Below are positions 34,428 to 64,000 of a stretch of 64,000 nucleotides of DNA, piece after piece (positions within the stretch are counted from its first letter, which is position 1; each line of letters begins with the position of its first letter). The notes beneath the pieces were generated by a model. The model was not told where the DNA came from and did no database searches. It was given only the letters and a program-made list of their open reading frames with translations. The translations under genes and the position numbers were made by a program. This stretch comes from Bordetella genomosp. 2 (GTDB lineage Bacteria > Pseudomonadota > Gammaproteobacteria > Burkholderiales > Burkholderiaceae_B): assembly GCF_002261345.1 (NCBI RefSeq), contig NZ_NEVT01000006.1:310001-374000 (forward strand), read 5' to 3'.

Positions 34428-34463
34428 GGCGATCCGGCGGAAGGCGTGGTCGGCTGGCGGGAA

Positions 34464-34859: not shown

Positions 34860-34896
34860 GATGGCGGTTCTCCAGTCTGACAGGGATGCGATCAAG

Positions 34897-35892: not shown

Positions 35893-35893
35893 A

Positions 35894-41463: not shown

Positions 41464-41473
41464 GGGGCTCCTC

Positions 41474-43060: not shown

Positions 43061-43178
43061 GGTCCATCCCCTTCTGAATGTTTTTCCGGGCCCGTCAGGC
43101 GGGACGTACCGCTAGGGTATCGGCCCTGCCCCGCCGGGCTTAGTACCAGTGGCATGGACTCGTTGGGACCAGCGCCGG

Positions 43179-45727: not shown

Positions 45728-45735
45728 GTGCCGCC

Positions 45736-47582: not shown

Positions 47583-47600
47583 GCGCGCCTCCGGTGTGCG

Positions 47601-47626
47601 GCGCCGGGCCGATGGCGGCCCGGCGC
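47601..47626 (-). terminator. Hairpin between dctP and dctQ
   Basis: GCGCCGGGCC (47601-47610) and GGCCCGGCGC (47617-47626) form a perfect 10-bp stem with loop GATGGC, between the binding-protein gene and the two permease genes. There is no T-run. The position matches the tauA-tauB hairpin and suggests partial termination or mRNA protection that favours the receptor. Confidence 0.55.
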
Positions 47627-47639
47627 GCCTGGGGTGTCC

Positions 47640-48743: not shown

Positions 48744-48910
48744 GTCTGTGCCTCCTCCACGTCGAACGTGGTCTGGATTTATGGTTTTTGCATCGACACG
48801 CCCGCCGGATCCTGCGGCCCGGACGGGCCCTGCAAGATGCCGGATCAGGCTACCCCCGCGGCGCGCCGCGGACAATCGCGCCGGCGCCGCGATCCGGCCG
48901 GAAAATGCAG

Positions 48911-48942
48911 AAAATGGAACGGCGAGGCACGAGACCGTTCCA
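48911..48942 (-). terminator. Intrinsic terminator of xsc
   Basis: On the minus strand, 12 bases after the xsc stop, TGGAACGG (complement of 48935-48942) pairs perfectly with CCGTTCCA (complement of 48915-48922) across a 12-base loop and is followed at once by TTTT (complement of 48911-48914). This is the one textbook rho-independent terminator in the window. It uncouples xsc from the TRAP genes, which must have a promoter in 48744-48910. Two GC palindromes lie there too (48856-48871 and 48875-48893). Confidence 0.7.
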
Positions 48943-48954
48943 CTATCCGCAGAA

Positions 48955-50763
48955 TCAGTTGCGCACCGGCTCGATCGGCAGCGGCACCTCTCCAGGCCGG
49001 AACGCTTCGTTCACATAGGACTTGTATTTGTCGAGCAAGCGCACCGGCTGCTTGAGCGCATCGCGCCGGAACGGGTCGCCCAGTTCCTGGCTGACCATCA
49101 TCTCCAGCACGGTGGTCTTGCCCTCGGACTGGGCCTGGCAGGCCGCGCGCAGCGCGTCGCCAACCTGGTCGGCATGCTCGACCCTTACGCCCTGCACGCC
49201 CATGGCGCGCGCCAGCTCGGCGAAGTCCGGGTTCTTCAGGTTGCTGCCGACGAAGCGCCGTCCATAGAAGTCGACCTGGTTCTTCTTCTCGGCGCCCCAC
49301 TGGCCATTGTGGAACACCACCGCGGTGACCGGGATTTCCTCGCGCGCGCAGGTCAGCAGTTCCTGGAAACTCATGCACCAGGCGCCATCGCCCACGTAGG
49401 CGACCGCCGGCCGGTCGGGGCGGCCCAGCTTGGCGCCGATCAAGGCGGGCAGCGCATAGCCGCAGTTGCCGAAGCTCATGGCGGCCAGCATCGAATCCGG
49501 CTCCCGGAAGCGCAGATAGCTGTTGGATACCGAGCAGATATTGCCGATGTCGGTCGACACCATCACATGGTCCGGCATGGCGCGCTCCAGCTCGCGCAAC
49601 ATGCGGCGCGGATGCATGCGGCCGCCGCCGCGCGCGATGATGTCCAGGCTCCAGTCGTCGCGCTCGTGCGACCAGCTGTCCAGCTCCTGCTCCCACTGCT
49701 TCTTTTCCTCCGCGATGCGGGCGCCGCGCTGCTCGCGGTTGCCCAGGCAGGCCGGCTGCGCCGCGGCCAGGCGCGCCGTCAGGGCGGCCGCGGCCGGCTT
49801 GGCGTCGCCGCACACGGCCACCGATACCGGCCGCACCAGGCCCAGCATGCGGTGATCGGCATCGACCTGGATGATGCGGGCCTGCTGCGGCCAGTAATCC
49901 AGGCCGTGCTGCGGCAAGGTGCCGAACGGCCCCAGGCGCGTGCCCAGCGCCAGCACGACGTCCGCCTGGGCCAGCAGCTTCATGCCCGCCTTCGAGCCCT
50001 GGTAGCCCAGCGGGCCGCACCACAGCGGATGGTCGGCCGGGAAGGCGTCGTTGTGCAGGTAGCTGGTGACGACCGGGGCGCCCAGCAGCTCGGCCAGCGC
50101 GATGCATTCCGGCTGCCCGCCGGAGAACAGCACGCCGCCGCCGGCCACGATCACCGGAAAACGCGCTTCGGCCAGCAGGCGCGCCGCCGCGTCCAGGTCC
50201 TCGTCGGCGCCCGGTCCGCGGCGCACCCGGCGCGGCGCCGGAATGGCGACGTCGATCTCCCCATAGAAATAGTCGCGCGGGATGTTCAACTGCGTCGGGC
50301 CGCGCTCGGCCATGGCATTGTCGAACGCCTTGCCGGTGAACTCGGCAATGCGGTCCGGCCGGTTGACGTGCGCCTGGTACTTGGTAATGCGCGAGAAAAT
50401 CGGCAGCTGCTCGGTTTCCTGGAAGCCGCCCAGTCCCATGCCCGACGTGCCCGTCTCGGGCGTGATGGCCACCACCGGGCTGTGGGCCCAGTAGGCGGCC
50501 GCCACGCCGGTCACGAAGTTGGTGATGCCGGGGCCGTTCTGGGCGATACATACGCCATGCCGGCCGGTCACGCGCGAATAGCCGTCCGCCATGTGGGCGG
50601 CGCCCTGCTCGTGCACGGTGGGTACAAAGCGGATGCCGGCGGCCGGGAACAGGTCCAGGGCGTCCATGAAGGCCGACCCCACGATGCCGAAGACGTCTTT
50701 CACGCCCTGGGCGACCAGCGTTTCGACAAAGGCCTCGCTGGGCGTCATGTGTACCTTGCTCAT
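48955..50763 (-). CDS. xsc: Sulfoacetaldehyde acetyltransferase
   Basis: A 602-residue thiamine-diphosphate enzyme with the three-domain acetohydroxyacid-synthase fold. The catalytic Glu region reads FVPTVHEQGAAHMADGYSR, and the ThDP/Mg motif is GDGAWCMSF...FHNGQWG. ITPETGTSGMGLGGFQE and FGNCGYALPALIGAKLG are typical of Xsc rather than AHAS. Xsc converts sulfoacetaldehyde and phosphate to acetyl phosphate and sulfite. GGAGAGGAG precedes the ATG. It is divergent from the IclR gene and is the meeting point of taurine and isethionate degradation in this window. Confidence 0.92.
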   Translation of the reverse strand: MSKVHMTPSEAFVETLVAQGVKDVFGIVGSAFMDALDLFPAAGIRFVPTVHEQGAAHMADGYSRVTGRHGVCIAQNGPGITNFVTGVAAAYWAHSPVVAITPETGTSGMGLGGFQETEQLPIFSRITKYQAHVNRPDRIAEFTGKAFDNAMAERGPTQLNIPRDYFYGEIDVAIPAPRRVRRGPGADEDLDAAARLLAEARFPVIVAGGGVLFSGGQPECIALAELLGAPVVTSYLHNDAFPADHPLWCGPLGYQGSKAGMKLLAQADVVLALGTRLGPFGTLPQHGLDYWPQQARIIQVDADHRMLGLVRPVSVAVCGDAKPAAAALTARLAAAQPACLGNREQRGARIAEEKKQWEQELDSWSHERDDWSLDIIARGGGRMHPRRMLRELERAMPDHVMVSTDIGNICSVSNSYLRFREPDSMLAAMSFGNCGYALPALIGAKLGRPDRPAVAYVGDGAWCMSFQELLTCAREEIPVTAVVFHNGQWGAEKKNQVDFYGRRFVGSNLKNPDFAELARAMGVQGVRVEHADQVGDALRAACQAQSEGKTTVLEMMVSQELGDPFRRDALKQPVRLLDKYKSYVNEAFRPGEVPLPIEPVRN

Positions 50764-50907
50764 GCTCCTCTCCTGGCAGATGCGCGGCCGCACGCCTGTC
50801 GCGCGGCACAATGGGATCGATTCTGCAGAAGCGTGGCCGGCCTTGCCATAGGCGGGCGTTTCATTTTTCGCGTGTTTTGTGCGACGATGCGCGAGACCGC
50901 CAGAAAC

Positions 50908-50920
50908 TTCAATTTTTGAA
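50908..50920. promoter_or_regulatory. Palindrome at the iclR start, candidate operator for xsc/iclR
   Basis: TTCAA (50908-50912) and TTGAA (50916-50920) are inverted around TTT, ending 2 bases before the ATG of the IclR gene and 145-157 bp from the xsc ATG. An IclR-type protein bound here would block its own translation start region. The similar string TTTCATTTTTCG lies near 50860. Confidence 0.4.
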
Positions 50921-50922
50921 AG

Positions 50923-51684
50923 ATGAGCGAAGAACCCGGTTCCGCGGCGCTGCGCGCGCTGGCCTTGCTGGAGCACGTGGCGCAATCCGAGCAGCCGGTC
51001 AGCCTGGCTGCCCTGACCCAGGCCACCGGCCTGCCCAAGCCGACCGTGCTGCGCATCCTGTCGCGGCTGGTCGACGCCGGCATGTTGCTGCGCGAGCCCG
51101 CCGGCAAGTCCTATGTGTCGGGGCCGCGCCTGGCGGCGCTGGCGCGCGACACCCTGCTCAATTCGCCACTGCGCGCCGCGCGCCGGCGCATCCTCGACAG
51201 CCTGGTCGACCAGATCGGCGAAACCTGCAACTGCACCATGCTCGACGGCGACGAGGTCATGTACCTGGACCGCGTCGAAACCGCCTGGCCGCTGCGCCTG
51301 AACCTGCAGCCGGGCTCGCGCGTCCCGCTGCACTGCACCGCCAGCGGCAAGCTGTTCCTGGCCTACATGCGCAAGGAAGCGCGTACGCGCCTGCTGGCCG
51401 CCGCCCCCCTGCCCCGCTATACGCCCAACACGCTGTGCGACCCGGCCGCGCTGGAGCGCGAGTTGCGCACGGTGCGCAAGGAAGGCGCCAGTTTCGACCG
51501 CGAGGAATTCCTGGTCGGCATCGTCTGCATGGCGGTGCCCATCCTGCAGGGCCGGCGCGCCGTCGCCGCCGTGGCGCTGCATGCCCCGGTGGCGCGCCTG
51601 AACATCGAACAGGCGCGCGAATGGCTGCCCCTCATGCAGGAAGCGGCCGCGGCCCTGTCGGGCACCTATGCCCCGGACACCTGA
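50923..51684 (+). CDS. IclR-family transcriptional regulator, candidate regulator of xsc
   Basis: A 253-residue IclR protein: N-terminal winged helix (SLAALTQATGLPKPTVLRILSRL) and effector domain (DGDEVMYLDRVETAWPLRLNLQPG in part, HCTASGKLFLAYM). Divergent orientation from xsc across 159 bp points to control of xsc and perhaps the TRAP-pta-GMC unit. Isethionate loci of Cupriavidus carry a regulator called IseR next to iseJ; I believe it is IclR-type but cannot check here. Confidence 0.88.
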   Translation: MSEEPGSAALRALALLEHVAQSEQPVSLAALTQATGLPKPTVLRILSRLVDAGMLLREPAGKSYVSGPRLAALARDTLLNSPLRAARRRILDSLVDQIGETCNCTMLDGDEVMYLDRVETAWPLRLNLQPGSRVPLHCTASGKLFLAYMRKEARTRLLAAAPLPRYTPNTLCDPAALERELRTVRKEGASFDREEFLVGIVCMAVPILQGRRAVAAVALHAPVARLNIEQAREWLPLMQEAAAALSGTYAPDT

Positions 51685-51738
51685 GAGCGCGGCCCGCTTC
51701 TTGCTGGCGCCGCGGCTTTCCGGCTCCATTCCTTCATC

Positions 51739-52671
51739 ATGACACGCCCAGCTACCGCCAGCGCGATCCGCATCGGCATCTCCGGCTGGCGCTACGCGCC
51801 CTGGCGCGGCAGCTTCTATCCCGAGGACCTGCCGCAGTCGCAAGAACTGGCCTACGCGTCGCACCAGGTGCCCACCATCGAGATCAACGGCACGTTCTAC
51901 TCCCTGCAGCGGCCCGAATGGTTCGCGCGCTGGCGCGACGCCACGCCGCGCGGCTTCGTGTTCAGCGTCAAGGGCACGCGCTTTATCTCGCACCGGCTGC
52001 GGCTGCGCGAGGTCGAAACGCCGCTGGCCAACTTCCTGGCCTCGGGGCTGTTCGAGCTGCGCGAGAAACTGGGGCCGATCCTGTGGCAATTCCCGCCGTC
52101 GATGCGCTTCGACCCGGAGCGTTTCGAGCGTTTCCTGGACCTGCTGCCCCACGATACCGATGCCGCCGCGCGCCTGGCCCGCCGCCATGACGAACGCATG
52201 GCCGGGCGCGCGGCGCTGGATCCCGGGCCGCGGCGCCCGCTGCGGCACGCCGTGGAAATCCGCCACGAGAGCTTCGCCTGCCCGGAATTCGTGCAGATGC
52301 TGCGCGCCCGCGGCGTGGCCCTGGTCACCGCGGACACCGCGGGCAAATGGCCGTTGCTGGAAGACGCCACGGCCGATTTCGCCTACCTGCGGCTGCACGG
52401 CGACCGCGAACTGTACGCCAGCGGCTACACCGAGGCGGCGCTGCGGCGCTGGGCGGCCCGCATCCGCGCCTGGTCGCGCGGCCGCGAACCCGCCGATGCG
52501 CGGCGCGCCGGCCCGCGCGCCGCGCAGGCATGGCGCAGCCGCGACATCTACTGCTATTTCGACAACGATATCAAGGTCAAGGCGCCCGGCGACGCGCGCA
52601 CGCTGGCGCGCCTGCTCGGCCTGCCGCTGGCGCCGGTCGATCCGCCGGCCGGGGACGCCGGCCCGCCCTGA
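51739..52671 (+). CDS. DUF72-domain (YecE-like) protein
   Basis: A 310-residue DUF72 protein with the conserved opening RIGISGWRYAPWRGSFYP, EINGTFYSLQRPEWFARW, FSVKGTRFISH and C-terminal DIYCYFDNDIKVKAP. The fold is a TIM barrel of unknown biochemical role, found widely as a single gene. There is no functional link to its neighbours; it converges on the histidine kinase gene. Confidence 0.85.
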   Translation: MTRPATASAIRIGISGWRYAPWRGSFYPEDLPQSQELAYASHQVPTIEINGTFYSLQRPEWFARWRDATPRGFVFSVKGTRFISHRLRLREVETPLANFLASGLFELREKLGPILWQFPPSMRFDPERFERFLDLLPHDTDAAARLARRHDERMAGRAALDPGPRRPLRHAVEIRHESFACPEFVQMLRARGVALVTADTAGKWPLLEDATADFAYLRLHGDRELYASGYTEAALRRWAARIRAWSRGREPADARRAGPRAAQAWRSRDIYCYFDNDIKVKAPGDARTLARLLGLPLAPVDPPAGDAGPP

Positions 52672-52684
52672 GGCCGGCGCCGGC

Positions 52685-54157
52685 TCAGCGCCCGGCCGGC
52701 AGCAGGAAGCGGAACACCGCGCCGTGGCCCGGCTCGTCGAGCAGGCGGATCTCGCTGCGGTGCAGCTGCAGAATGCGTTGCACGATCACCAGGCCCAGAC
52801 CGCCGCTGTCGCGGCGCTGCTGGGTCAGCACCGAGGCGCGCGTGAACAGGCCGGCGCGCAGCTCGGCCGGGATGCCGGGGCCGGTATCGCTGACCCGCAC
52901 CTCGACGCCCTGCTCGGCGCTGCCCAGCCGGACCTCGATGCGGCTGCCGGGAGGACTGTGCCGGATGGCATTATCCAGCAGGTTGGTCAGGACCCGCTCG
53001 ATCATGCCCAGGTCGGCGCGCACGGCGGGCAGGTCGCGCGAAAACTCGATGCCGAGCCGCTGGCTGCGCGCCTCGGCCGCCAGTTCGAATTTCTGGATCA
53101 CGTCCTGCACCAGCTCCGGCAGCGAAAAAGTGTCCAGCTCGGGCTGCACCAGCCCGGATTCCAGGCGCGCCAGCTCGAACAGTTCTTGCGCCAGCCGGCC
53201 GACCTTGCGGCTCTGTCCCAGCGCCGTGTCCAGATAGCGCCGGCGCTCGTCCGGCGTCAGCGTTTCGTCCTTGAAGCGCAGCGTTTCCAGGTAGCCGTGC
53301 AGCGAGGTCAGCGGCGTGCGCAGGTCGTGCGAGATGTTGGCGACCAGGTCGCGCCGCTGCTGGTCCTGGCGCGTCAGTTCGCGCCACTGCTCGGCGATGC
53401 GCTGGCCCATCTGCGCGAAGGCGCGCCGCAACACGGTGATTTCGTCGGCCCGCTCGCCGGCCGCGTCATCGTGGCTGCGGCGCAGCGCGGCCGCCGCGGC
53501 GCCGTCGCCATCGAAATTGCGCACTGCCTGGGTCAGCGCGCGCAACGGCCGGGTAATCAGGGAAAAAGCGACCAGCCCCGCGATCAGCCCCAGCAGCGCC
53601 ACCAGCGCGATGGTCCATAGCGTCGTGCGCACCACCGCGCTGGCCGACACGGCCGAGGCCAGCGCGTCGTGGGCCTCGCCCTGCAGCACGACGTAGACAT
53701 AGCCCCGGTCGCGGCCGTTCACTTGAATGGGCGCGGCGCTGAAGACCTTGTGCACGCCCGGATTGCGCGGGTCGTCGCCGGCGATCGGCAGCGGCTCGCC
53801 CGCCAGGAAGCGGCGCAGCGGCGCCAGGTCGACGTGCTCCAGCTTGACGCGGCCCGCCGGCGCGGCATCGGCGGCGATCCGTCCGGCGTTGTCCAGCAGG
53901 TAGACCTCCACTGCCGGGTTGACGGCCATCAGCTGGTCGAACAGCAGCCGCACGGCTTCGCGGTTCCAGCCGCCGGCGTCCATCAAGGGTCGGGTGCCGG
54001 CAATGTGGGCAGCCAGCCCGCTCGAGAGCCGCTGGGTCACTTCCTGCTGGTACCGCTCGTTGGCCGCCATGTGCAGCCAGGCGGACGCGCCGCAGCAGGC
54101 CAGCAGCAGCAAGGCGAACACGGCCGACATGCGCTGGGTGAGGGTCAGCCGGTTCAT
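52685..54157 (-). CDS. Sensor histidine kinase of the two-component system
   Basis: A 490-residue membrane kinase: helix 1 near 10-30, a periplasmic sensor of about 145 residues, helix 2 near 178-202, HAMP, the H-box NISHDLRTPLTSLHGYLE with phospho-acceptor His277, N-box LTNLLDNAIRHS and G-boxes DTGPGIP and SGGLGLVI. Its ATG overlaps the response-regulator stop. The pair sits directly upstream of, and divergent from, the duplicated methionine sulfoxide repair operon, so it may sense periplasmic oxidant or envelope damage. The kinase and regulator bodies are outside the repeat. Confidence 0.9.
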   Translation of the reverse strand: MNRLTLTQRMSAVFALLLLACCGASAWLHMAANERYQQEVTQRLSSGLAAHIAGTRPLMDAGGWNREAVRLLFDQLMAVNPAVEVYLLDNAGRIAADAAPAGRVKLEHVDLAPLRRFLAGEPLPIAGDDPRNPGVHKVFSAAPIQVNGRDRGYVYVVLQGEAHDALASAVSASAVVRTTLWTIALVALLGLIAGLVAFSLITRPLRALTQAVRNFDGDGAAAAALRRSHDDAAGERADEITVLRRAFAQMGQRIAEQWRELTRQDQQRRDLVANISHDLRTPLTSLHGYLETLRFKDETLTPDERRRYLDTALGQSRKVGRLAQELFELARLESGLVQPELDTFSLPELVQDVIQKFELAAEARSQRLGIEFSRDLPAVRADLGMIERVLTNLLDNAIRHSPPGSRIEVRLGSAEQGVEVRVSDTGPGIPAELRAGLFTRASVLTQQRRDSGGLGLVIVQRILQLHRSEIRLLDEPGHGAVFRFLLPAGR

Positions 54158-54864
54158 GGAGCGTCTCCGGCGGCCGCCAGTTTATAGCCGCGGCCCCAGA
54201 CGGTCAGGATGCGGCGCGGCTCGGACGGGTCGTCCTCGATCTTGGTGCGCAGGCGGTTGATATGGGTATTGACCGTGTGCTCGTAGCCTTCGTGCTGGTA
54301 GCCCCAGACCTGGTTCAGCAGGTCCATGCGCGAGAAGACCTTGCCGGGATGCCGCGCGAAGAAATACAGCAGGTCGAATTCGCGCGGGGTGAGCTCGAGC
54401 GGCCGGCCATCCACGACCGCTTCGCGCGCCAGCGGGTCGATGGACAGGCCGGCCAGTTCGAGCCGGCCAGCCTCCAGGCGGACATTGCGCTCCAGCGCGT
54501 CGGCGCGGCGCAGCAGCGCCTTGATCCGCGCCACCAGCTCCAGCATGGAAAATGGCTTGGCCAGGTAGTCGTCCGCCCCGAGTTCGAGCCCCAGGATGCG
54601 GTGCACCTCGCTGGAGCGCGCGCTGGTGATGATGATGGGCGTGTAGCGGGCCATGGCGCGGGCCCGCTTGCAGATTTCCAGGCCGTCGATGCCGGGCAGC
54701 ATCAGGTCCAGCACCAGCGCGTCCCAGCGCCCGGCCTCCAGCTGGCGCAGGCCGTCCTCGCCGTCGGCGGCATGGGCCACGGTATAGCCCTCGTCGCGCA
54801 GGTGCGGGCGCAGGAGGTCCGCGATGTGGACATCGTCCTCGACGATCAGGATGCGTTTGGGCAT
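54154..54864 (-). CDS. OmpR-family response regulator
   Basis: A 236-residue regulator with an N-terminal receiver domain (acidic Asp10/Asp11, phospho-site Asp53 in LVLDLMLPG, Lys in YLAKPF) and a C-terminal winged helix (LTPREFDLLYFFARHPGKVFSR in part, YEHTVNTHINRLRTKI). It is encoded just left of the duplicated operon, divergently. The first ten bases of its coding end (54855-54864) are included in the repeat unit and recur at the duplication junction at 59692. Confidence 0.92.
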   Translation of the reverse strand: MPKRILIVEDDVHIADLLRPHLRDEGYTVAHAADGEDGLRQLEAGRWDALVLDLMLPGIDGLEICKRARAMARYTPIIITSARSSEVHRILGLELGADDYLAKPFSMLELVARIKALLRRADALERNVRLEAGRLELAGLSIDPLAREAVVDGRPLELTPREFDLLYFFARHPGKVFSRMDLLNQVWGYQHEGYEHTVNTHINRLRTKIEDDPSEPRRILTVWGRGYKLAAAGDAP

Positions 54865-54990
54865 GGCGTGGCGGGGCGTCTGGAGCCGGTTCAGTATCCG
54901 CTATTGTCGCCAATCGCGGCCGGCCAGTTATCACATTTAATTTAAGTTTGCGTGAGGACTTCGCCATGCGCGGCGGGCAAGAATCCCCGC
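54865..54990. promoter_or_regulatory. Divergent promoter region of the regulator and the repair operon (copy 1)
   Basis: This gap separates the response regulator from the cytochrome gene. A possible rightward promoter is TTGTCG (54904-54909), 18 bases, TTATCA (54928-54933). An AT-rich TTAATTTAA follows near 54936-54945. As the whole gap is inside the repeat, copy 2 has its own promoter at 59702-59827. OmpR-type binding sites are not recognisable by eye. Confidence 0.35.
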
Positions 54991-55623
54991 ATGGCTACTC
55001 CATCGACCCCGCTTCCCGGCGCCGCCGCGGCAAGCCGCAACCCCGCCGCGCATCCCGTCTGGGTGCGCGCCACCCACTGGGTGAATGCGCTGGCCGTGCT
55101 CATCATGACGGCCAGCGGCTGGCGCATCTACAACGCCGCGCCGCTGTTCGATTTCGTCTTCCCCGCCGGCATCACCCTGGGCGGCTGGCTGGGCGGCGCG
55201 CTGCAGTGGCATTTTGCCGGCATGTGGCTATTGGCCGGCAACGGCCTGCTCTACCTGGGATGCAGCCTGGCCAGCGGCCGGCTGGTCCGGCGCTTCTTCC
55301 CGCTGTCGGCGCGCGGCATCGCGGCCGACCTGGCCGCCGCGCTGCGCGGACGGCTGTCGCACGCCGATCCGCGCCGCTACAACCAGGTGCAGCGCGCGGC
55401 ATACCTGTTCGCGGTCATCGATCTTGTCGTCCTGGTGCTGTCCGGCCTGGTGCTCTGGAAGTCGGTGCAGTTCGAGACGCTGCGGACGCTGATGGGCGGC
55501 TATGAGGCGGCGCGCTACGTGCATTTCACCGCCATGGCCTTGCTGATGGGCTTCGTGGCCGTGCACCTGGCCATGGCGGCGCTGGTGCCGCGCACGCTCA
55601 TGACCATGATCCGTGGCCGCTGA
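54991..55623 (+). CDS. Cytochrome b561-type membrane subunit (copy 1)
   Basis: A 210-residue, four-helix cytochrome b of the DUF4405/Ni-Fe-hydrogenase cytochrome b group: PVWVRATHWVNALAVLIMTASGW holds the first heme-ligand His, and the last helices ARYVHFTAMALLMGFVAVHL hold two more. It would pass quinol electrons to the exported molybdoprotein encoded next. The ATG at 54991 is used; a GTG at 54952 would add 13 residues. Codon 144 is GAT (Asp) here and AAT (Asn) in copy 2. It overlaps the leader of the next gene closely. Confidence 0.85.
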   Translation: MATPSTPLPGAAAASRNPAAHPVWVRATHWVNALAVLIMTASGWRIYNAAPLFDFVFPAGITLGGWLGGALQWHFAGMWLLAGNGLLYLGCSLASGRLVRRFFPLSARGIAADLAAALRGRLSHADPRRYNQVQRAAYLFAVIDLVVLVLSGLVLWKSVQFETLRTLMGGYEAARYVHFTAMALLMGFVAVHLAMAALVPRTLMTMIRGR

Positions 55624-55633
55624 GGAGCCATGC

Positions 55634-56425
55634 ATGAAGATTCCCAAGCCTGTCGCGCTCTCCGCCCTGGACGGCCCGGCCATTCTGAAAGAAGCCCGCA
55701 AACTGCTGGCCCCGCGTATCCAGCAGCCCGCACGCAGGGCATTCCTGCAGCGCACGCTGACCCTGGGGGGGCTGGCCATGCTGACCGGCTGCAGTCTCAG
55801 CGACGACGACAGCGTTGAGCAGGCATTGACGGCCATCTCGCGCTTCAACGACCGCGTGCAGGCCGGGATCTTCGATCCGCACCAGCTGGCGCCCACCTAT
55901 CCGGAATCGATGATCACCCGCCCCTTTCCCTTCAATGCCTACTACGGCATCGAGCACGTGCCGCAAGTAGACGAAGCCTCGTTCCGGCTCGAGGTGACCG
56001 GGCTGGTGGCCGACAGACGCGCCTGGCGCCTGCAGGAACTGCGCGGCATGGCGCAGGTGGACCAGGTCACCCGCCACATTTGCGTGGAAGGCTGGAGCGC
56101 CATCGGCAAATGGGGCGGCGTGCGCTTCTCGGACTTCCTCGAGCGCGTGGGCGCCGACCGGCGGGCCAAGTATGTCGGGTTCAAGTGCGCCGACGACTAC
56201 TACACCAGCATCGACATGGCCACGGCGCTGCATCCGCAGACCCTCCTGGCGCTGACCTACGACGGCCGGACCCTGCCCGCCGAGTACGGTTTTCCCATGA
56301 AGCTGCGCATGCCGACCAAGCTTGGCTACAAGAACCCCAAGCACATCCAGGCGATTTTCGTGACCAACACCTACCCGGGCGGCTACTGGGAAGACCAGGG
56401 CTACAACTGGTTCGGCGGGAGCTAG
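55634..56425 (+). CDS. Exported sulfite-oxidase-fold molybdopterin oxidoreductase (YedY/MsrP-like, copy 1)
   Basis: A 263-residue protein. A twin-arginine motif RRAFLQ (Arg34-Arg35) and a lipobox LTGC (Cys53) make it a Tat-exported lipoprotein. The molybdenum-ligand Cys of the sulfite oxidase fold is Cys150 in HICVEGW, with KYVGFKCADDYYTSID and LPAEYGFPMKLRMP as further landmarks. TGAGGAG lies 6 bases before the ATG at 55634. With its cytochrome partner it resembles the YedY1-YedZ1 methionine sulfoxide reductase of Azospira; the neighbours (Met-rich peptide, MsrB, MsrA) support peptide or protein methionine repair over sulfite oxidation. Confidence 0.82.
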   Translation: MKIPKPVALSALDGPAILKEARKLLAPRIQQPARRAFLQRTLTLGGLAMLTGCSLSDDDSVEQALTAISRFNDRVQAGIFDPHQLAPTYPESMITRPFPFNAYYGIEHVPQVDEASFRLEVTGLVADRRAWRLQELRGMAQVDQVTRHICVEGWSAIGKWGGVRFSDFLERVGADRRAKYVGFKCADDYYTSIDMATALHPQTLLALTYDGRTLPAEYGFPMKLRMPTKLGYKNPKHIQAIFVTNTYPGGYWEDQGYNWFGGS

Positions 56426-56484
56426 GGCCGGTGCCAATGATTTTCCACCCGCGGCGCGGCCGCGACAACCACGAGGACCTCACC

Positions 56485-56790
56485 ATGAACAAGCTCTCCA
56501 CCTGCGTTTTCTCGATGTGCCTGGCGCTGGCCGCAGGCAGCGCGTTCGCCGCCGACCAGATGGCCAAGGACGGCATGGCCAAGGACGGCATGTCGAAAAG
56601 CTCGATGTCCCGCGACGGCATGGGCAAGCATGAGGGCATGTCGAAGGACGGCATGGCCAAGGATGGCATGTCGAAGAGTTCGATGTCCCGCGACGGAATG
56701 GGCAAGCATGACAGCATGTCGAAGGACGGGATGTCGAAAAACGGGATGCAAAAGGACTCCGGCATGTCGAAAGACGGCATGAAGAAATAA
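56485..56790 (+). CDS. Methionine-rich MXKDX-repeat periplasmic peptide (copy 1)
   Basis: A 101-residue protein with a Sec signal (cleavage near SAFA-ADQ, residue 22). The rest is nothing but pentapeptide-like units of the type MxKDG, with 15 Met in about 79 residues and many Lys and Asp. The segment at residues 31-49 recurs at 57-75 (period 26 residues, 78 bp; DNA 56575-56631 and 56653-56709). It matches the pentapeptide MXKDX repeat family, and in role the MrpX peptide of Azospira, whose methionines quench hypochlorite and are re-reduced by YedY1. Confidence 0.85.
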   Translation: MNKLSTCVFSMCLALAAGSAFAADQMAKDGMAKDGMSKSSMSRDGMGKHEGMSKDGMAKDGMSKSSMSRDGMGKHDSMSKDGMSKNGMQKDSGMSKDGMKK

Positions 56791-56852
56791 TCGCCACCTT
56801 GCCGGCGGGGTCGCTCCGGTACGGGAGCCCGCCGCCCCATGCGGAGCACACT

Positions 56853-57386
56853 ATGAAACCGACCCGTAGATCATTCCTGGCCGCCGGCGGCGGCGCCGCG
56901 CTGGCGAGCCTGCTGGGCGTCCTGGCTGGCGCGCGCCACGGCGCGGCGCAAGCAGCGCCCGCCGACTTCCCTCTGGTCCGCAGCGACGCGCAATGGCGCG
57001 CCCTGCTCACGCCCGAGCAGTACCGCATCCTGCGCCAGGCAGGCACCGAACGGCCCTATTCCAGCCCGCTGGACCACGAGCACCGGGCCGGCACGTACGC
57101 CTGCGCCGGTTGCGGGCAGGCGCTGTTCTCGTCCGACACCAAGTTCGACAGCGGCACTGGCTGGCCCAGTTTCTGGCAAGCCCTGCCGCACGCCGTCGGC
57201 ACGGCCGGCGACCGCAGCTACGGCATGGTCCGCACTTCGGTGCATTGCGCGCACTGCGGCGGCCACCTCGGCCACGTGTTCGACGACGGGCCGCCGCCAA
57301 CCGGGCTGCGCTACTGCATGAACGGCGCGGCAATGCAGTTCGCGCCGTCGGCATCGCCGGCCGCCCCGACCAGGAGCCCGTCATGA
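56853..57386 (+). CDS. msrB: Exported peptide-methionine (R)-S-oxide reductase (copy 1)
   Basis: A 177-residue MsrB. The N-terminus MKPTRRSFLAAGGG is a Tat signal, so the enzyme acts in the periplasm. Zinc Cys pairs are Cys84/Cys87 (CAGC) and Cys132/Cys135 (CAHC); the catalytic nucleophile is Cys155 in RYCMNG. GGAG lies before the ATG at 56853. It overlaps msrA by 4 bases. Confidence 0.92.
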   Translation: MKPTRRSFLAAGGGAALASLLGVLAGARHGAAQAAPADFPLVRSDAQWRALLTPEQYRILRQAGTERPYSSPLDHEHRAGTYACAGCGQALFSSDTKFDSGTGWPSFWQALPHAVGTAGDRSYGMVRTSVHCAHCGGHLGHVFDDGPPPTGLRYCMNGAAMQFAPSASPAAPTRSPS

Positions 57387-58120
57387 AGAAAACCCGCAAT
57401 TCGGCGCCGCCGGCCGCCCCGGGCCGCCGCACCGCCTGCCTGCGGCTGGCCGGCGCCGGGCTGCTGGCCATGGCCGGCTGGCTCGCCATCCAGCCAGCCG
57501 GGCGCGCGGCCGATGCCGTCTTCGAGATCCCGCCGCCGGCCCGCGACGTCCCCGCCGCGGGCGGCATGGCCACGGCCGTGCTTGCGGGCGGCTGCTTCTG
57601 GGGCGTGCAGGCGGTGTTCCAGCACGTCGAAGGAGTCCGCGAGGCACTCTCGGGCTACGCCGGCGGCAGCGCCGCCACCGCCGACTACGAGACGGTCAGC
57701 GGCGGGCGTTCGGGGCATGCCGAGGCGGTACGCATCACCTACGACCCGGCCCGCGTCAGCTATGGGAAGCTGCTGCAAATCTACTTCTCGGTGGTCCACG
57801 ACCCGACCCAGCGCAACCGCCAGGGCCCCGACGTGGGGCCGCAGTACCGCTCGGCCATCTTCCCGGCCGACGCGGCGCAGCGCCAGGTCGCGGAAGCCTA
57901 CATCGCGCAGCTCGACCGCTCCGGCGCCTATCCCGGCCCGCTGGCCACGACAATAGAGACGCTGCAAGGCTTTTATCCGGCGGAGGACTACCACCAGGAT
58001 TACCTGGCGCGGCATCCGGACAGCCCATACATCATCGTCAACGATCAACCCAAGGTCGACAACCTGGCCCGCGCCTACAGCGCCTACTATCGCGCCCGAC
58101 CGGCGCTGGTGCGCCCCTGA
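57383..58120 (+). CDS. msrA: Exported peptide-methionine (S)-S-oxide reductase (copy 1)
   Basis: A 245-residue MsrA with the catalytic motif GGCFWG (Cys71) and YETVSGGRSGHAEAV, FFSVVHDPTQRNRQGPDVG-type stretches. A hydrophobic leader (CLRLAGAGLLAMAGWLAI) preceded by Arg-Arg suggests export, by Tat or Sec, or a membrane anchor. C-terminal Cys residues of the usual resolving type are absent, so it may use an external reductant. Its ATG overlaps the msrB stop. Confidence 0.9.
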   Translation: MKKTRNSAPPAAPGRRTACLRLAGAGLLAMAGWLAIQPAGRAADAVFEIPPPARDVPAAGGMATAVLAGGCFWGVQAVFQHVEGVREALSGYAGGSAATADYETVSGGRSGHAEAVRITYDPARVSYGKLLQIYFSVVHDPTQRNRQGPDVGPQYRSAIFPADAAQRQVAEAYIAQLDRSGAYPGPLATTIETLQGFYPAEDYHQDYLARHPDSPYIIVNDQPKVDNLARAYSAYYRARPALVRP

Positions 58121-58184
58121 CGCCGGCGCCGACCGCTTGACGCTGCCCGCCGGGCGGGCATAACCTCGGAGTCGGCTCCAGGTT

Positions 58185-58780
58185 ATGGAAGGAAACTTGT
58201 CCACCACATCGGCGGTGCATCATTGGGTAGGCGTCCTGCTGGCGGCGGGCGAAGGCGCGCGCTACCTCGCCGCGCGGCGCGCCCTGCGCGGTGCCGCCAA
58301 CAAGCTGCTGGCCTGCCCGACACGATCGCCGTGGTCGCCAATCGCCCGCCCGAGCTGCCGGCCCTGCTCGCGCGCCTGGGGTGCTCCATCCTGACGGCGC
58401 CGCCCGCGCCGCGCGGCATGGGCGTATCGCTCGCCGCCGCGGCCCGCCACCTGCTCGATCGCCCCGCTCCCGGCGGCCAGTTGCCCGGCTGCGTCGTGGC
58501 CCTGGCCGACATGCCATGGCTGCGCCCCGACACCCTGCGCCGGCTGCTGGACCACGCCGCCGGCGATCGCATCGTCGCGCCGTTGTACGACGGCCGGCGC
58601 GGCCACCCGGTGGTATTCGGCGGGCAATACCTGGCCGAACTGGCCGAGCTCGACGGCGATGTCGGGGCCCGCGCCCTGCTGGCGCGCCACGGCGTACTGG
58701 AAATCGATTGCGACGATGCCGGCGTGCTGCGCGACATCGACGTTCCGCAAGATCTGCACAGAGGAAACCCAAGCTCATGA
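58185..58780 (+). pseudogene. MobA/MocA-type molybdenum-cofactor nucleotidyltransferase, broken (copy 1)
   Basis: The frame from ATG 58185 reads VGVLLAAGEGARYLAARRAL...AANKLLA, the NTP-binding start of MobA/MocA cytidylyl/guanylyltransferases, then goes off. The rest of the protein (LPDTIAVVANRPPELPALL to VPQDLHRGNPSS) is in a frame shifted by two, joining near 58315-58322. The segment normally between NKLLA and LPDTIAVV is missing, so an internal deletion with frameshift is the likely cause. The same break is in copy 2. Its stop overlaps the xdhC ATG. The intact protein would mature molybdenum cofactor for an exported molybdoenzyme. Confidence 0.78.
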
Positions 58781-60342
58781 ATCCGCTCGACATGGATGTA
58801 CTGCGCCAGGCGCGCGACTGGGTCGCTGCCGGGCATACCGTGCACCTGGCCACCGTGGCCCAGACCTGGGGCTCGGCGCCGCGCCAGGCCGGCGCGTTGA
58901 TGGCCCTGCGCGGCGACGGCCGCATGGTCGGCTCGGTGTCCGGCGGCTGTGTCGAGGACGACCTGATCGCGCGCGCCCGGGCCGGCTCCCTGCCCGCCCG
59001 CCCGGACCGCGTCACCTACGGCGTGACCGGCGACGAGGCGGCCCGCTTCGGCCTGCCCTGCGGGGGCACGCTGCGCCTGGTGGTCGAGCCGCTGCAAGGC
59101 ACCCAATGGCTGGACGCCGTGCTGGCGGACATCGGCCAGCAGCGCCTGGTGGCGCGCACGCTCGACCTGCAATCCGGCGCCTGTACGCTGGCGCCGGCCA
59201 GCCCGGCGGACGGCCCGGACTTCGACGGCCGCGTGCTGCGCTCGGTATACGGCCCGCAGTGGCGGCTGCTGATCATCGGCGCCAACCAGACCGCCCGGGC
59301 GCTGTGCGGCATCGCCGCGATGCTCGATTTCCGCGTGCTGGTGTGCGACCCGCGCGAAGAGCTGTACGCGGGCTGGGACGCGCCCCATGGCACGCTGATC
59401 ACCAGCATGCCGGACGATGCCGTGCTGGAGATCGGCGTGGACGAGCGCACGGCCATCGTCGCCCTCACCCACGATCCCAAGCTCGACGACATGGCGCTGC
59501 TGGAGGCCCTGAAGTCGCCCGCCTTCTACGTGGGCGCGCTGGGCTCGCGTCCCAACCAGGCCAAGCGGCGCGAGCGGCTGCGCCAGTTCGACCTGGACGA
59601 TGCCCAGATAGCGCGACTGCACGGCCCGGTCGGCCTGCGCATCGCCAGCCGCACGCCGGCGGAAATCGCCGTGGCGGTGGCCGCCGAACTGGTTTGGGCA
59701 TGGCGTGGCGGGGCGTCTGGAGCCGGTTCAGTATCCGCTATTGTCGCCAATCGCGGCCGGCCAGTTATCACATTTAATTTAAGTTTGCGTGAGGACTTCG
59801 CCATGCGCGGCGGGCAAGAATCCCCGCATGGCTACTCCATCGACCCCGCTTCCCGGCGCCGCCGCGGCAAGCCGCAACCCCGCCGCGCATCCCGTCTGGG
59901 TGCGCGCCACCCACTGGGTGAATGCGCTGGCCGTGCTCATCATGACGGCCAGCGGCTGGCGCATCTACAACGCCGCGCCGCTGTTCGATTTCGTCTTCCC
60001 CGCCGGCATCACCCTGGGCGGCTGGCTGGGCGGCGCGCTGCAGTGGCATTTTGCCGGCATGTGGCTATTGGCCGGCAACGGCCTGCTCTACCTGGGATGC
60101 AGCCTGGCCAGCGGCCGGCTGGTCCGGCGCTTCTTCCCGCTGTCGGCGCGCGGCATCGCGGCCGACCTGGCCGCCGCGCTGCGCGGACGGCTGTCGCACG
60201 CCGATCCGCGCCGCTACAACCAGGTGCAGCGCGCGGCATACCTGTTCGCGGTCATCAATCTTGTCGTCCTGGTGCTGTCCGGCCTGGTGCTCTGGAAGTC
60301 GGTGCAGTTCGAGACGCTGCGGACGCTGATGGGCGGCTATGA
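58777..60342 (+). CDS. XdhC/CoxI-family protein, 3' end fused to the start of repeat copy 2
   Basis: Residues 1-305 are an XdhC-family protein: VAQTWGSAPRQAGALMAL, GSVSGGCVEDDL, and the Rossmann part LLIIGANQTARALCGIAAML...VCDPRE, ending YVGALGSRPNQAKRRERL. XdhC proteins bind molybdenum cofactor and insert it in sulfurated form into molybdoenzymes. At about 59692 the frame crosses the duplication junction and runs on for 216 residues out of frame through the promoter and cytochrome gene of copy 2. The family is about 300-330 residues, so only a short native tail is lost; function may be kept or impaired. Confidence 0.8.
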   Translation: MNPLDMDVLRQARDWVAAGHTVHLATVAQTWGSAPRQAGALMALRGDGRMVGSVSGGCVEDDLIARARAGSLPARPDRVTYGVTGDEAARFGLPCGGTLRLVVEPLQGTQWLDAVLADIGQQRLVARTLDLQSGACTLAPASPADGPDFDGRVLRSVYGPQWRLLIIGANQTARALCGIAAMLDFRVLVCDPREELYAGWDAPHGTLITSMPDDAVLEIGVDERTAIVALTHDPKLDDMALLEALKSPAFYVGALGSRPNQAKRRERLRQFDLDDAQIARLHGPVGLRIASRTPAEIAVAVAAELVWAWRGGASGAGSVSAIVANRGRPVITFNLSLREDFAMRGGQESPHGYSIDPASRRRRGKPQPRRASRLGARHPLGECAGRAHHDGQRLAHLQRRAAVRFRLPRRHHPGRLAGRRAAVAFCRHVAIGRQRPALPGMQPGQRPAGPALLPAVGARHRGRPGRRAARTAVARRSAPLQPGAARGIPVRGHQSCRPGAVRPGALEVGAVRDAADADGRL

Positions 60343-60460
60343 GGCGGCGCGCTACGTGCATTTCACCGCCATGGCCTTGCTGATGGGCTTCGTGGCCGTG
60401 CACCTGGCCATGGCGGCGCTGGTGCCGCGCACGCTCATGACCATGATCCGTGGCCGCTGA
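59828..60460 (+). CDS. Cytochrome b561-type membrane subunit (copy 2)
   Basis: It is identical to the 54991-55623 gene except for A60257, which changes Asp144 to Asn at the entry of the third helix (FAVIN in place of FAVID). Its promoter region is duplicated with it, but transcription from copy 1 may also read in, since no terminator lies at the junction. Confidence 0.85.
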   Translation: MATPSTPLPGAAAASRNPAAHPVWVRATHWVNALAVLIMTASGWRIYNAAPLFDFVFPAGITLGGWLGGALQWHFAGMWLLAGNGLLYLGCSLASGRLVRRFFPLSARGIAADLAAALRGRLSHADPRRYNQVQRAAYLFAVINLVVLVLSGLVLWKSVQFETLRTLMGGYEAARYVHFTAMALLMGFVAVHLAMAALVPRTLMTMIRGR

Positions 60461-60470
60461 GGAGCCATGC

Positions 60471-61262
60471 ATGAAGATTCCCAAGCCTGTCGCGCTCTCC
60501 GCCCTGGACGGCCCGGCCATTCTGAAAGAAGCCCGCAAACTGCTGGCCCCGCGTATCCAGCAGCCCGCACGCAGGGCATTCCTGCAGCGCACGCTGACCC
60601 TGGGGGGGCTGGCCATGCTGACCGGCTGCAGTCTCAGCGACGACGACAGCGTTGAGCAGGCATTGACGGCCATCTCGCGCTTCAACGACCGCGTGCAGGC
60701 CGGGATCTTCGATCCGCACCAGCTGGCGCCCACCTATCCGGAATCGATGATCACCCGCCCCTTTCCCTTCAATGCCTACTACGGCATCGAGCACGTGCCG
60801 CAAGTAGACGAAGCCTCGTTCCGGCTCGAGGTGACCGGGCTGGTGGCCGACAGACGCGCCTGGCGCCTGCAGGAACTGCGCGGCATGGCGCAGGTGGACC
60901 AGGTCACCCGCCACATTTGCGTGGAAGGCTGGAGCGCCATCGGCAAATGGGGCGGCGTGCGCTTCTCGGACTTCCTCGAGCGCGTGGGCGCCGACCGGCG
61001 GGCCAAGTATGTCGGGTTCAAGTGCGCCGACGACTACTACACCAGCATCGACATGGCCACGGCGCTGCATCCGCAGACCCTCCTGGCGCTGACCTACGAC
61101 GGCCGGACCCTGCCCGCCGAGTACGGTTTTCCCATGAAGCTGCGCATGCCGACCAAGCTTGGCTACAAGAACCCCAAGCACATCCAGGCGATTTTCGTGA
61201 CCAACACCTACCCGGGCGGCTACTGGGAAGACCAGGGCTACAACTGGTTCGGCGGGAGCTAG
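60471..61262 (+). CDS. Exported sulfite-oxidase-fold molybdopterin oxidoreductase (copy 2)
   Basis: The protein is identical to the 55634-56425 product, with the same Tat motif, lipobox Cys53 and molybdenum-ligand Cys150. The upstream Shine-Dalgarno is also duplicated. Confidence 0.82.
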   Translation: MKIPKPVALSALDGPAILKEARKLLAPRIQQPARRAFLQRTLTLGGLAMLTGCSLSDDDSVEQALTAISRFNDRVQAGIFDPHQLAPTYPESMITRPFPFNAYYGIEHVPQVDEASFRLEVTGLVADRRAWRLQELRGMAQVDQVTRHICVEGWSAIGKWGGVRFSDFLERVGADRRAKYVGFKCADDYYTSIDMATALHPQTLLALTYDGRTLPAEYGFPMKLRMPTKLGYKNPKHIQAIFVTNTYPGGYWEDQGYNWFGGS

Positions 61263-61321
61263 GGCCGGTGCCAATGATTTTCCACCCGCGGCGCGGCCGC
61301 GACAACCACGAGGACCTCACC

Positions 61322-61627
61322 ATGAACAAGCTCTCCACCTGCGTTTTCTCGATGTGCCTGGCGCTGGCCGCAGGCAGCGCGTTCGCCGCCGACCAGATGG
61401 CCAAGGACGGCATGGCCAAGGACGGCATGTCGAAAAGCTCGATGTCCCGCGACGGCATGGGCAAGCATGAGGGCATGTCGAAGGACGGCATGGCCAAGGA
61501 TGGCATGTCGAAGAGTTCGATGTCCCGCGACGGAATGGGCAAGCATGACAGCATGTCGAAGGACGGGATGTCGAAAAACGGGATGCAAAAGGACTCCGGC
61601 ATGTCGAAAGACGGCATGAAGAAATAA
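61322..61627 (+). CDS. Methionine-rich MXKDX-repeat periplasmic peptide (copy 2)
   Basis: The 101-residue protein is identical to copy 1, with the same 15 methionines in the mature part and the same number of internal units. Confidence 0.85.
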   Translation: MNKLSTCVFSMCLALAAGSAFAADQMAKDGMAKDGMSKSSMSRDGMGKHEGMSKDGMAKDGMSKSSMSRDGMGKHDSMSKDGMSKNGMQKDSGMSKDGMKK

Positions 61628-61689
61628 TCGCCACCTTGCCGGCGGGGTCGCTCCGGTACGGGAGCCCGCCGCCCCATGCGGAGCACACT

Positions 61690-62223
61690 ATGAAACCGAC
61701 CCGTAGATCATTCCTGGCCGCCGGCGGCGGCGCCGCGCTGGCGAGCCTGCTGGGCGTCCTGGCTGGCGCGCGCCACGGCGCGGCGCAAGCAGCGCCCGCC
61801 GACTTCCCTCTGGTCCGCAGCGACGCGCAATGGCGCGCCCTGCTCACGCCCGAGCAGTACCGCATCCTGCGCCAGGCAGGCACCGAACGGCCCTATTCCA
61901 GCCCGCTGGACCACGAGCACCGGGCCGGCACGTACGCCTGCGCCGGTTGCGGGCAGGCGCTGTTCTCGTCCGACACCAAGTTCGACAGCGGCACTGGCTG
62001 GCCCAGTTTCTGGCAAGCCCTGCCGCACGCCGTCGGCACGGCCGGCGACCGCAGCTACGGCATGGTCCGCACTTCGGTGCATTGCGCGCACTGCGGCGGC
62101 CACCTCGGCCACGTGTTCGACGACGGGCCGCCGCCAACCGGGCTGCGCTACTGCATGAACGGCGCGGCAATGCAGTTCGCGCCGTCGGCATCGCCGGCCG
62201 CCCCGACCAGGAGCCCGTCATGA
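61690..62223 (+). CDS. msrB: Exported peptide-methionine (R)-S-oxide reductase (copy 2)
   Basis: The protein is identical to the 56853-57386 product, including the Tat signal, four zinc cysteines and catalytic Cys155. Confidence 0.92.
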   Translation: MKPTRRSFLAAGGGAALASLLGVLAGARHGAAQAAPADFPLVRSDAQWRALLTPEQYRILRQAGTERPYSSPLDHEHRAGTYACAGCGQALFSSDTKFDSGTGWPSFWQALPHAVGTAGDRSYGMVRTSVHCAHCGGHLGHVFDDGPPPTGLRYCMNGAAMQFAPSASPAAPTRSPS

Positions 62224-62957
62224 AGAAAACCCGCAATTCGGCGCCGCCGGCCGCCCCGGGCCGCCGCACCGCCTGCCTGCGGCTGGCCGGCGCCGGGCTG
62301 CTGGCCATGGCCGGCTGGCTCGCCATCCAGCCAGCCGGGCGCGCGGCCGATGCCGTCTTCGAGATCCCGCCGCCGGCCCGCGACGTCCCCGCCGCGGGCG
62401 GCATGGCCACGGCCGTGCTTGCGGGCGGCTGCTTCTGGGGCGTGCAGGCGGTGTTCCAGCACGTCGAAGGAGTCCGCGAGGCACTCTCGGGCTACGCCGG
62501 CGGCAGCGCCGCCACCGCCGACTACGAGACGGTCAGCGGCGGGCGTTCGGGGCATGCCGAGGCGGTACGCATCACCTACGACCCGGCCCGCGTCAGCTAT
62601 GGGAAGCTGCTGCAAATCTACTTCTCGGTGGTCCACGACCCGACCCAGCGCAACCGCCAGGGCCCCGACGTGGGGCCGCAGTACCGCTCGGCCATCTTCC
62701 CGGCCGACGCGGCGCAGCGCCAGGTCGCGGAAGCCTACATCGCGCAGCTCGACCGCTCCGGCGCCTATCCCGGCCCGCTGGCCACGACAATAGAGACGCT
62801 GCAAGGCTTTTATCCGGCGGAGGACTACCACCAGGATTACCTGGCGCGGCATCCGGACAGCCCATACATCATCGTCAACGATCAACCCAAGGTCGACAAC
62901 CTGGCCCGCGCCTACAGCGCCTACTATCGCGCCCGACCGGCGCTGGTGCGCCCCTGA
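62220..62957 (+). CDS. msrA: Exported peptide-methionine (S)-S-oxide reductase (copy 2)
   Basis: The protein is identical to the 57383-58120 product, with the catalytic GGCFWG motif and ATGA overlap with msrB. Confidence 0.9.
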   Translation: MKKTRNSAPPAAPGRRTACLRLAGAGLLAMAGWLAIQPAGRAADAVFEIPPPARDVPAAGGMATAVLAGGCFWGVQAVFQHVEGVREALSGYAGGSAATADYETVSGGRSGHAEAVRITYDPARVSYGKLLQIYFSVVHDPTQRNRQGPDVGPQYRSAIFPADAAQRQVAEAYIAQLDRSGAYPGPLATTIETLQGFYPAEDYHQDYLARHPDSPYIIVNDQPKVDNLARAYSAYYRARPALVRP

Positions 62958-63021
62958 CGCCGGCGCCGACCGCTTGACGCTGCCCGCCGGGCGGGCATAA
63001 CCTCGGAGTCGGCTCCAGGTT

Positions 63022-63617
63022 ATGGAAGGAAACTTGTCCACCACATCGGCGGTGCATCATTGGGTAGGCGTCCTGCTGGCGGCGGGCGAAGGCGCGCGCT
63101 ACCTCGCCGCGCGGCGCGCCCTGCGCGGTGCCGCCAACAAGCTGCTGGCCTGCCCGACACGATCGCCGTGGTCGCCAATCGCCCGCCCGAGCTGCCGGCC
63201 CTGCTCGCGCGCCTGGGGTGCTCCATCCTGACGGCGCCGCCCGCGCCGCGCGGCATGGGCGTATCGCTCGCCGCCGCGGCCCGCCACCTGCTCGATCGCC
63301 CCGCTCCCGGCGGCCAGTTGCCCGGCTGCGTCGTGGCCCTGGCCGACATGCCATGGCTGCGCCCCGACACCCTGCGCCGGCTGCTGGACCACGCCGCCGG
63401 CGATCGCATCGTCGCGCCGTTGTACGACGGCCGGCGCGGCCACCCGGTGGTATTCGGCGGGCAATACCTGGCCGAACTGGCCGAGCTCGACGGCGATGTC
63501 GGGGCCCGCGCCCTGCTGGCGCGCCACGGCGTACTGGAAATCGATTGCGACGATGCCGGCGTGCTGCGCGACATCGACGTTCCGCAAGATCTGCACAGAG
63601 GAAACCCAAGCTCATGA
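63022..63617 (+). pseudogene. Broken molybdenum-cofactor nucleotidyltransferase (copy 2)
   Basis: It carries the same internal deletion and frameshift as at 58185-58780. The lesion therefore existed before the duplication. Confidence 0.78.
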
Positions 63618-64000
63618 ATCCGCTCGACATGGATGTACTGCGCCAGGCGCGCGACTGGGTCGCTGCCGGGCATACCGTGCACCTGGCCACCGTGGCCCAG
63701 ACCTGGGGCTCGGCGCCGCGCCAGGCCGGCGCGTTGATGGCCCTGCGCGGCGACGGCCGCATGGTCGGCTCGGTGTCCGGCGGCTGTGTCGAGGACGACC
63801 TGATCGCGCGCGCCCGGGCCGGCTCCCTGCCCGCCCGCCCGGACCGCGTCACCTACGGCGTGACCGGCGACGAGGCGGCCCGCTTCGGCCTGCCCTGCGG
63901 GGGCACGCTGCGCCTGGTGGTCGAGCCGCTGCAAGGCACCCAATGGCTGGACGCCGTGCTGGCGGACATCGGCCAGCAGCGCCTGGTGGCGCGCACGCTC
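63614..64000 (+). CDS. XdhC/CoxI-family protein, 5' part (copy 2, cut by window end)
   Basis: The first 129 residues are identical to copy 1. This copy probably carries the native 3' end beyond the window and would be the intact xdhC gene, but that cannot be seen here. Confidence 0.8.
   Translation, partial: MNPLDMDVLRQARDWVAAGHTVHLATVAQTWGSAPRQAGALMALRGDGRMVGSVSGGCVEDDLIARARAGSLPARPDRVTYGVTGDEAARFGLPCGGTLRLVVEPLQGTQWLDAVLADIGQQRLVARTL

Follow-up and report, generated by a model that had tools for sequence, protein, structure and literature searches.

A tandemly duplicated methionine-repair operon beside a single-copy OrhKR-type regulator pair in the Bordetella genomosp. 2 assembly

Gene content of the duplicated locus

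We analyzed a 64,000-nt stretch of the Bordetella genomosp. 2 assembly (contig NZ_NEVT01000006.1, positions 310,001 to 374,000; hereafter, the window), in which genes for a sensor histidine kinase and an OmpR-type response regulator diverge from a set of genes on the opposite strand (Table 1). As judged from family profiles, this set is an operon encoding, in order, a cytochrome b561, a molybdoprotein, a methionine-rich MXKDX repeat peptide, MsrB and MsrA, and it is followed by a MocA-like nucleotidyltransferase pseudogene and xdhC. Direct comparison revealed that the sequence from 54855 to 59691 recurs head to tail from 59692 to 64528 at a constant offset of 4837 bp. The two copies align without gaps and are identical at 4836 of 4837 bases, the sole mismatch being G at 55420 against A at 60257; a repeat this long is far more than chance would produce. 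Copy 2 runs 528 bases beyond the end of the window, and that part was taken from the same contig. A sequence-only reading of the window had described a 4,837-bp unit recurring from 59692; its coordinates and offset proved exact, and its gene list, pseudogene included, stands with two refinements: xdhC is cut in copy 1 and intact in copy 2, and of the response-regulator gene the unit includes no more than the initial 10 bases.

The molybdoprotein belongs to the MsrP/sulfite-oxidase family. Since its score against the MsrP equivalog NCBIfam NF003767 (78 bits) falls below the curated cut-off (207 bits), we describe it as MsrP-like and do not file it as MsrP; the nearest solved chain by sequence is 1xdq (E 3.6e-10). 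MsrQ carries a Pfam domain other than PF01292, and the membrane partner in this operon is assigned by Pfam to PF01292 (cytochrome b561), with no MsrQ family domain found in it. The start codon of the cytochrome was chosen by congeners. Within each MXKDX peptide gene (56560-56748 and 61397-61585) there is an internal direct repeat of 111 nt at 78-nt spacing with 86% identity, a second, smaller tandem duplication within the same gene set.

Compared with congeners, the MocA-like gene lacks 58 nt in both copies, a deletion that shifts it out of frame. The region reads through in frame in the congeners G001, G002, G004 and G008 (DNA alignment with G001, G004 and G008), and because the two copies share the identical deletion, the lesion probably predates the duplication. 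The XdhC and hydroxylase genes that adjoin this broken gene for a molybdenum-cofactor nucleotidyltransferase stay open. Elsewhere in the window, 30127-30228 and 39038-39139 form a 102-nt inverted repeat pair, 78% complementary and 8.8 kb apart.

Table 1 Features of the duplicated locus (window coordinates)
Feature	Coordinates	Strand	Basis or remark
Sensor histidine kinase (OrhK-like position), single copy	52685..54157	-	Pfam HisKA, HATPase_c; HAMP below Pfam cut-off
OmpR-type response regulator (OrhR-like), single copy	54154..54864	-	Pfam; 67% identity over 221 aa to E. coli plasmid-locus regulator
Duplicated unit, copy 1, 4837 bp	54855..59691	+	Identity to copy 2, own-genome search
OrhR-box-like motif TCACA-N15-CGTGA, copy 1	54931..54955	+	One base off published TCACA-N15-TGTGA (PMC8550376)
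Cytochrome b561 membrane subunit, copy 1 (ancestral Asp)	54991..55623	+	PF01292; 58% identity to E. coli plasmid-locus cytochrome b
MsrP/sulfite-oxidase-family molybdoprotein, copy 1, twin-arginine translocation (Tat)-type signal and lipobox	55634..56425	+	PF00174; signal read by eye
Methionine-rich MXKDX repeat peptide, copy 1	56488..56790	+	TIGR02953, 71.9 bits (cut-off 41)
MsrB, copy 1, Tat-like signal	56853..57386	+	PF01641; TIGR00357, 167.5 (cut-off 113.05); signal read by eye
MsrA, copy 1, N-terminal signal-like stretch	57383..58120	+	PF01625; TIGR00401, 168.2 (cut-off 108.1); signal read by eye
MocA-like nucleotidyltransferase pseudogene, copy 1	58185..58780	+	PF12804 on 3' part
xdhC, copy 1, native to codon 305 (59691), then 216 read-through codons	58777..60342	+	
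Unique junction of xdhC copy 1 and regulator start, 0-nt microhomology	59680..59705	+	Present in 1/268 family genomes
Duplicated unit, copy 2, window part (on to 64528 outside the window)	59692..64000	+	Comparison, own-genome search
OrhR-box-like motif, copy 2	59768..59792	+	
Cytochrome b561, copy 2 (derived Asp to Asn, base 60257)	59828..60460	+	
Molybdoprotein, copy 2	60471..61262	+	
MXKDX repeat peptide, copy 2	61325..61627	+	
MsrB, copy 2	61690..62223	+	
MsrA, copy 2	62220..62957	+	
MocA-like pseudogene, copy 2, same lesion	63022..63617	+	Copies identical here
xdhC, copy 2, intact, window part (341 aa, end 64639 outside the window)	63614..64000	+	

Copy number in this genome and in relatives

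When the unit was searched against the entire assembly (5,020,448 bases in 9 contigs), two full-length matches were returned, along with six others, all short and of 65-91% identity. Both copies lie inside one contig of 1,378,715 bases, and the window is free of N bases. The sequence past 64000, where the sequence-only reading had suggested looking for further copies, was checked: the unit does not resume after 64528, and the 5472 bases that follow are single-copy DNA with no second near-identical place in the genome; therefore, there is no third copy, and together with the whole-assembly search this rules out a longer array. General over-duplication of the assembly was also rejected, as 34001-54000 and the 5472 bases beyond the end of copy 2 matched only themselves and paralogues (65-78% identity, E<1e-30); this check covered those two regions, with 54001-54854 and the rest of the genome outside it. 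A plasmid origin was rejected on the basis of 16 plasmid records ('near' mode), which match only short parts of the unit, the best covering 11% of it.

In the congeners G001, G002 and G008, the same genes occur once and in collinear order: kinase and regulator, cytochrome b561, molybdoprotein, Met-rich peptide, MsrB, MsrA, MocA-like, XdhC, hydroxylase, iron-sulfur subunit and cytochrome c. In G003, the operon is on one contig and the MocA-XdhC-hydroxylase block on another; the match in G004 is split across the ends of two contigs, and G007 shows the first three operon genes only in the 16 kb read. G005 and G006 gave no molybdoprotein match at E<1e-60. From these arrangements it follows that the unit combines a complete operon with two further genes that can be located away from it. 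G008 also has a second Met-rich peptide-like match (locus L111, 14228-14446, 49% identity) beyond its kinase gene. Across the family, the molybdoprotein was matched in 73 of 268 genomes (E<1e-60). Seventy-two of these have one copy and only the present genome has two, so that duplication of the operon recurs in 0 of the 72 others.

Break points and junction

The left break falls in codon 4 of the divergent response-regulator gene. Thus, the unit carries the divergent intergenic region with only the first 10 bases of the regulator gene, and the kinase and regulator genes remain in single copy; the sequence-only reading had said as much, both for the controlling genes and for the upstream promoter gap, which is present in both copies. 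The right break falls after codon 305 of the 341 codons of xdhC. Copy 2 begins directly after the last base of copy 1, with nothing inserted between them, and microhomology at the join is 0 nt. In register, the two native ends agree at 8 of 20 positions (within 10 bases of the break), which is not above chance (p 0.20; 20,000 random pairs averaged 5.8). No flanking repeat of at least 40 nt other than the unit itself was found at the unit ends in the window, in a scan that had the right end of copy 2 outside it and that included no dedicated search for insertion sequences (IS). Duplication by homology or IS elements through end repeats was therefore rejected: microhomology is absent, both break points fall within genes (the regulator gene and xdhC), and that scan of the window found no end repeat. 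The same features favour illegitimate joining over homologous recombination. In such a RecA-independent event, the site in regulator codon 4 would have been joined to the site late in xdhC, giving the 4837-bp head-to-tail duplication.

Since neither end gene is destroyed by a tandem duplication, the left side retains an intact regulator pair, and the right side retains an intact xdhC with the downstream molybdenum-hydroxylase operon. The intact xdhC of copy 2 (341 aa, ending at 64639) is followed by genes for the molybdenum-hydroxylase large subunit, an iron-sulfur subunit and a cytochrome c. Copy 1 of xdhC lacks the final 36 native residues; instead, its frame stays open for another 216 codons, across the second promoter region, to give 521 aa in total. 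The 305 residues kept match the full XdhC_C profile (1-125 of 125), and the C-terminal stretch that is absent is conserved in congeners. On the minus strand, the duplicated start codon of the regulator opens a 78-aa chimeric frame (59465-59701) antisense to xdhC copy 1, which would yield an antisense RNA if the regulator promoter is active.

The 26-base junction sequence is present in 1 of the 268 family genomes, which is the present one. This bears on whether the second copy is an assembly artefact, arising from loop traversal or from a rare subpopulation of an organism that is essentially single-copy. Such an artefact would fit the single copy in the 72 other genomes, and the structure is read from the assembly; in Bordetella pertussis, tandem amplifications were unresolved by sequence data alone and needed manual work (PMC8942028). 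However, the junction is a novel sequence within a 1.38-Mb contig and an N-free window, simple loop traversal would not give copies that differ at one base, and the flanks searched on both sides of the unit have no second near-identical place. We consequently regard an artefact as improbable.

A candidate control site in both copies

In uropathogenic E. coli, the response regulator OrhR binds the promoter region of its target operon, and the box TCACA-N15-TGTGA was proposed (PMC8550376). A motif one base off this box, TCACA-N15-CGTGA, occurs exactly twice in the window (54931 and 59768), once per copy, with 0.15 occurrences expected by shuffling; since the two are copies of one site, they count as one observation. 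The motif sits between the regulator and the cytochrome in all six congeners with the operon, in which the intergenic block is conserved, and in an E. coli plasmid locus. The latter, taken as orh type from its gene order, also reads CGTGA, and 21 of the 25 motif bases are alike (by eye). Its regulator, cytochrome and molybdoprotein are 67, 58 and 61% identical to the Bordetella proteins. In a DNA search for distant similarity, 489 of 5426 E. coli genomes contained related sequence, with no match covering 80% of the query.

The motif was then surveyed in 78 named loci (80 loci less L042 and L089, which have little upstream DNA). Exact TCACA-N15-YGTGA occurs within 1.2 kb upstream of the molybdoprotein gene in 21 of the 78, and in none of the 78 downstream control stretches. 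Counted by eye and by genus, it is present in 10 of 14 Achromobacter/Bordetella loci (absent from L028, L033, L037 and L078) and in 7 of 34 Pseudomonas loci; the motif is not universal among related loci. No sigma-70 consensus promoter was found within 54700-60100 (0.4 expected), which is no argument against a regulated promoter. Because the OrhR-box-like motif is present in both copies, one response regulator probably drives two operons.

The single difference and the age of the duplication

The sole difference between the copies changes Asp to Asn in the cytochrome b561. At the aligned position, five of the six congeners have Asp and the sixth (G008) has Ala, indicating that the base in copy 2 is the derived one. 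A derived change confined to copy 2 might suggest divergence in progress, with copy 2 gaining a new role through its cytochrome. This is very improbable: it is a single substitution at a site that is not invariant, as the Ala in G008 shows, and the rest of the unit is identical.

The sequence-only reading had taken near-identity as a sign of a recent event, and the one mismatch, together with the single copy in the 72 other genomes, bears this out. The best reading of the sequences is that the duplication is young and private to this genome among the family genomes compared. The mutation rate of E. coli is 2.2e-10, and at this rate one single-nucleotide polymorphism (SNP) between the copies is expected per ~470,000 generations. 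Loss rates reported for tandem duplications in P. aeruginosa (PMC12607827), fitted with seven of the nine duplications there (the 137- and 497-kb ones were left out) and interpolated to 4.8 kb, give ~2e-4 per generation, a half-life of ~3,400 generations.

Taken together, the locus is probably a young, strain-private, illegitimate head-to-tail duplication that raises the dosage of the operon, with one regulator switching on both units. Several points weigh against this. The duplication is known here from the assembled sequence of one isolate, and the set of relatives has one genome per species, with sister isolates outside the comparison. Draft assemblies of the multi-contig relatives may have collapsed tandem copies, although collapse is less likely in the 16 of the 72 single-copy genomes that are single-contig assemblies. 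Finally, a young duplication under no selection would be expected to show fewer than one SNP over 4837 bp: by a rough, cross-species estimate, the chance of one arising before loss is ~1%. This SNP could be explained by a base error, by different rates in this organism, by retention under selection or by luck, and we do not take it as proof of any of these.

Retention under selection, in which a greater dosage of the methionine-repair operon would be favoured under oxidant stress, is a possibility that we hold at less than even weight, as rather unlikely. It would account for a SNP that is improbable (~1%) if the duplication is real and unselected, both copies hold the complete operon with its control site, and homologous operons protect against peroxide or hypochlorous acid (HOCl) (PMC8550376, PMC8315932). 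Nevertheless, a random unit of similar size would often hold some full operon, the SNP may be a base error, and the duplication did not recur elsewhere in the family. Furthermore, the unit includes two passenger genes, of which one is dead and the other truncated, and short duplications in P. aeruginosa were estimated to last for thousands of generations unselected (PMC12607827). The setting of host oxidant stress that the sequence-only reading had offered is unsupported, as close relatives of the molybdoprotein occur in Achromobacter, Pseudomonas, Variovorax and other genera.

Discussion

The type of operon and the type of duplication are both already known. The closest described locus is OrhK/OrhR with c3566-c3567-c3568, in which a kinase and regulator pair lies beside an operon for a cytochrome b, a molybdoprotein and a Met-rich peptide (PMC8550376). 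The Bordetella locus has this arrangement, with the pair divergent from the three genes in the same order, and the E. coli plasmid locus likewise has the divergent regulator and the TCACA-N15-CGTGA motif. The Bordetella locus differs in having MsrB and MsrA after the Met-rich peptide instead of the downstream genes of strain CFT073, and in that the operon is duplicated. In uropathogenic E. coli, deleting the kinase, regulator, cytochrome or molybdoprotein cut growth under tert-butyl hydroperoxide (PMC8550376). The yedYZ-mrpX locus of Azospira suillum and bcrXQP of Brucella also combine an MXKDX Met-rich peptide with an MsrP-like protein and a membrane partner, and the relative in Brucella is HOCl-induced and contributes to resistance; however, regulation in Brucella is by an extracytoplasmic function (ECF) sigma/anti-sigma pair (PMC8315932), whereas a two-component pair and a PF01292 cytochrome b561 are found in the Bordetella locus.

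By analogy with these homologues, the single kinase and regulator pair may sense an oxidant and activate the two near-identical operons, so that the dosage of operon products would be about doubled. The MXKDX peptide could serve as a methionine sink that soaks up oxidants, and the molybdoprotein, presumably fed with electrons by the cytochrome, would together with MsrA and MsrB reduce methionine sulfoxide in the periplasm. This view predicts binding of the regulator, doubled expression and oxidant resistance.

As to the duplication, the 2.6- and 3.3-kb tandem duplications of P. aeruginosa had an estimated persistence of thousands of generations without selection, and short duplications there were unexpectedly stable and able to amplify (PMC12607827). 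They too are head to tail, and the 4.8 kb of the Bordetella unit falls between the 3.3- and 17.8-kb units of that study; therefore, the Bordetella duplication is expected to be lost slowly and to be able to amplify. Those duplications were engineered, most of them with a junction marker, whereas the one in Bordetella is natural and unmarked. B. pertussis amplifications are also tandem copy-number changes and belong to the same broader group, but the resolved ones span 15-197 kb in an IS-rich genome, compared with 4.8 kb and ends inside two ordinary genes in the present case (PMC8942028). We found no published duplication of an msr operon in the open-access literature, searched under one wording.

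If the second copy is an artefact or the duplication is neutral, the locus is ordinary. If the duplication is real, it offers a clean example from nature of a short tandem duplication whose ends are defined to the base, in which an oxidant-repair operon is doubled and its regulator stays single. A more far-reaching and doubtful idea is that a naturally fixed short duplication of this kind acts as a primed, re-amplifiable dosage switch, or 'genetic memory', for periplasmic oxidant defence, in which one OrhR-like regulator serves two operator-bearing operons that have lasted long enough to gain a coding difference. The motif also extends OrhR-box-like sites to the Bordetella group, so that the regulation of these operons can be tested.

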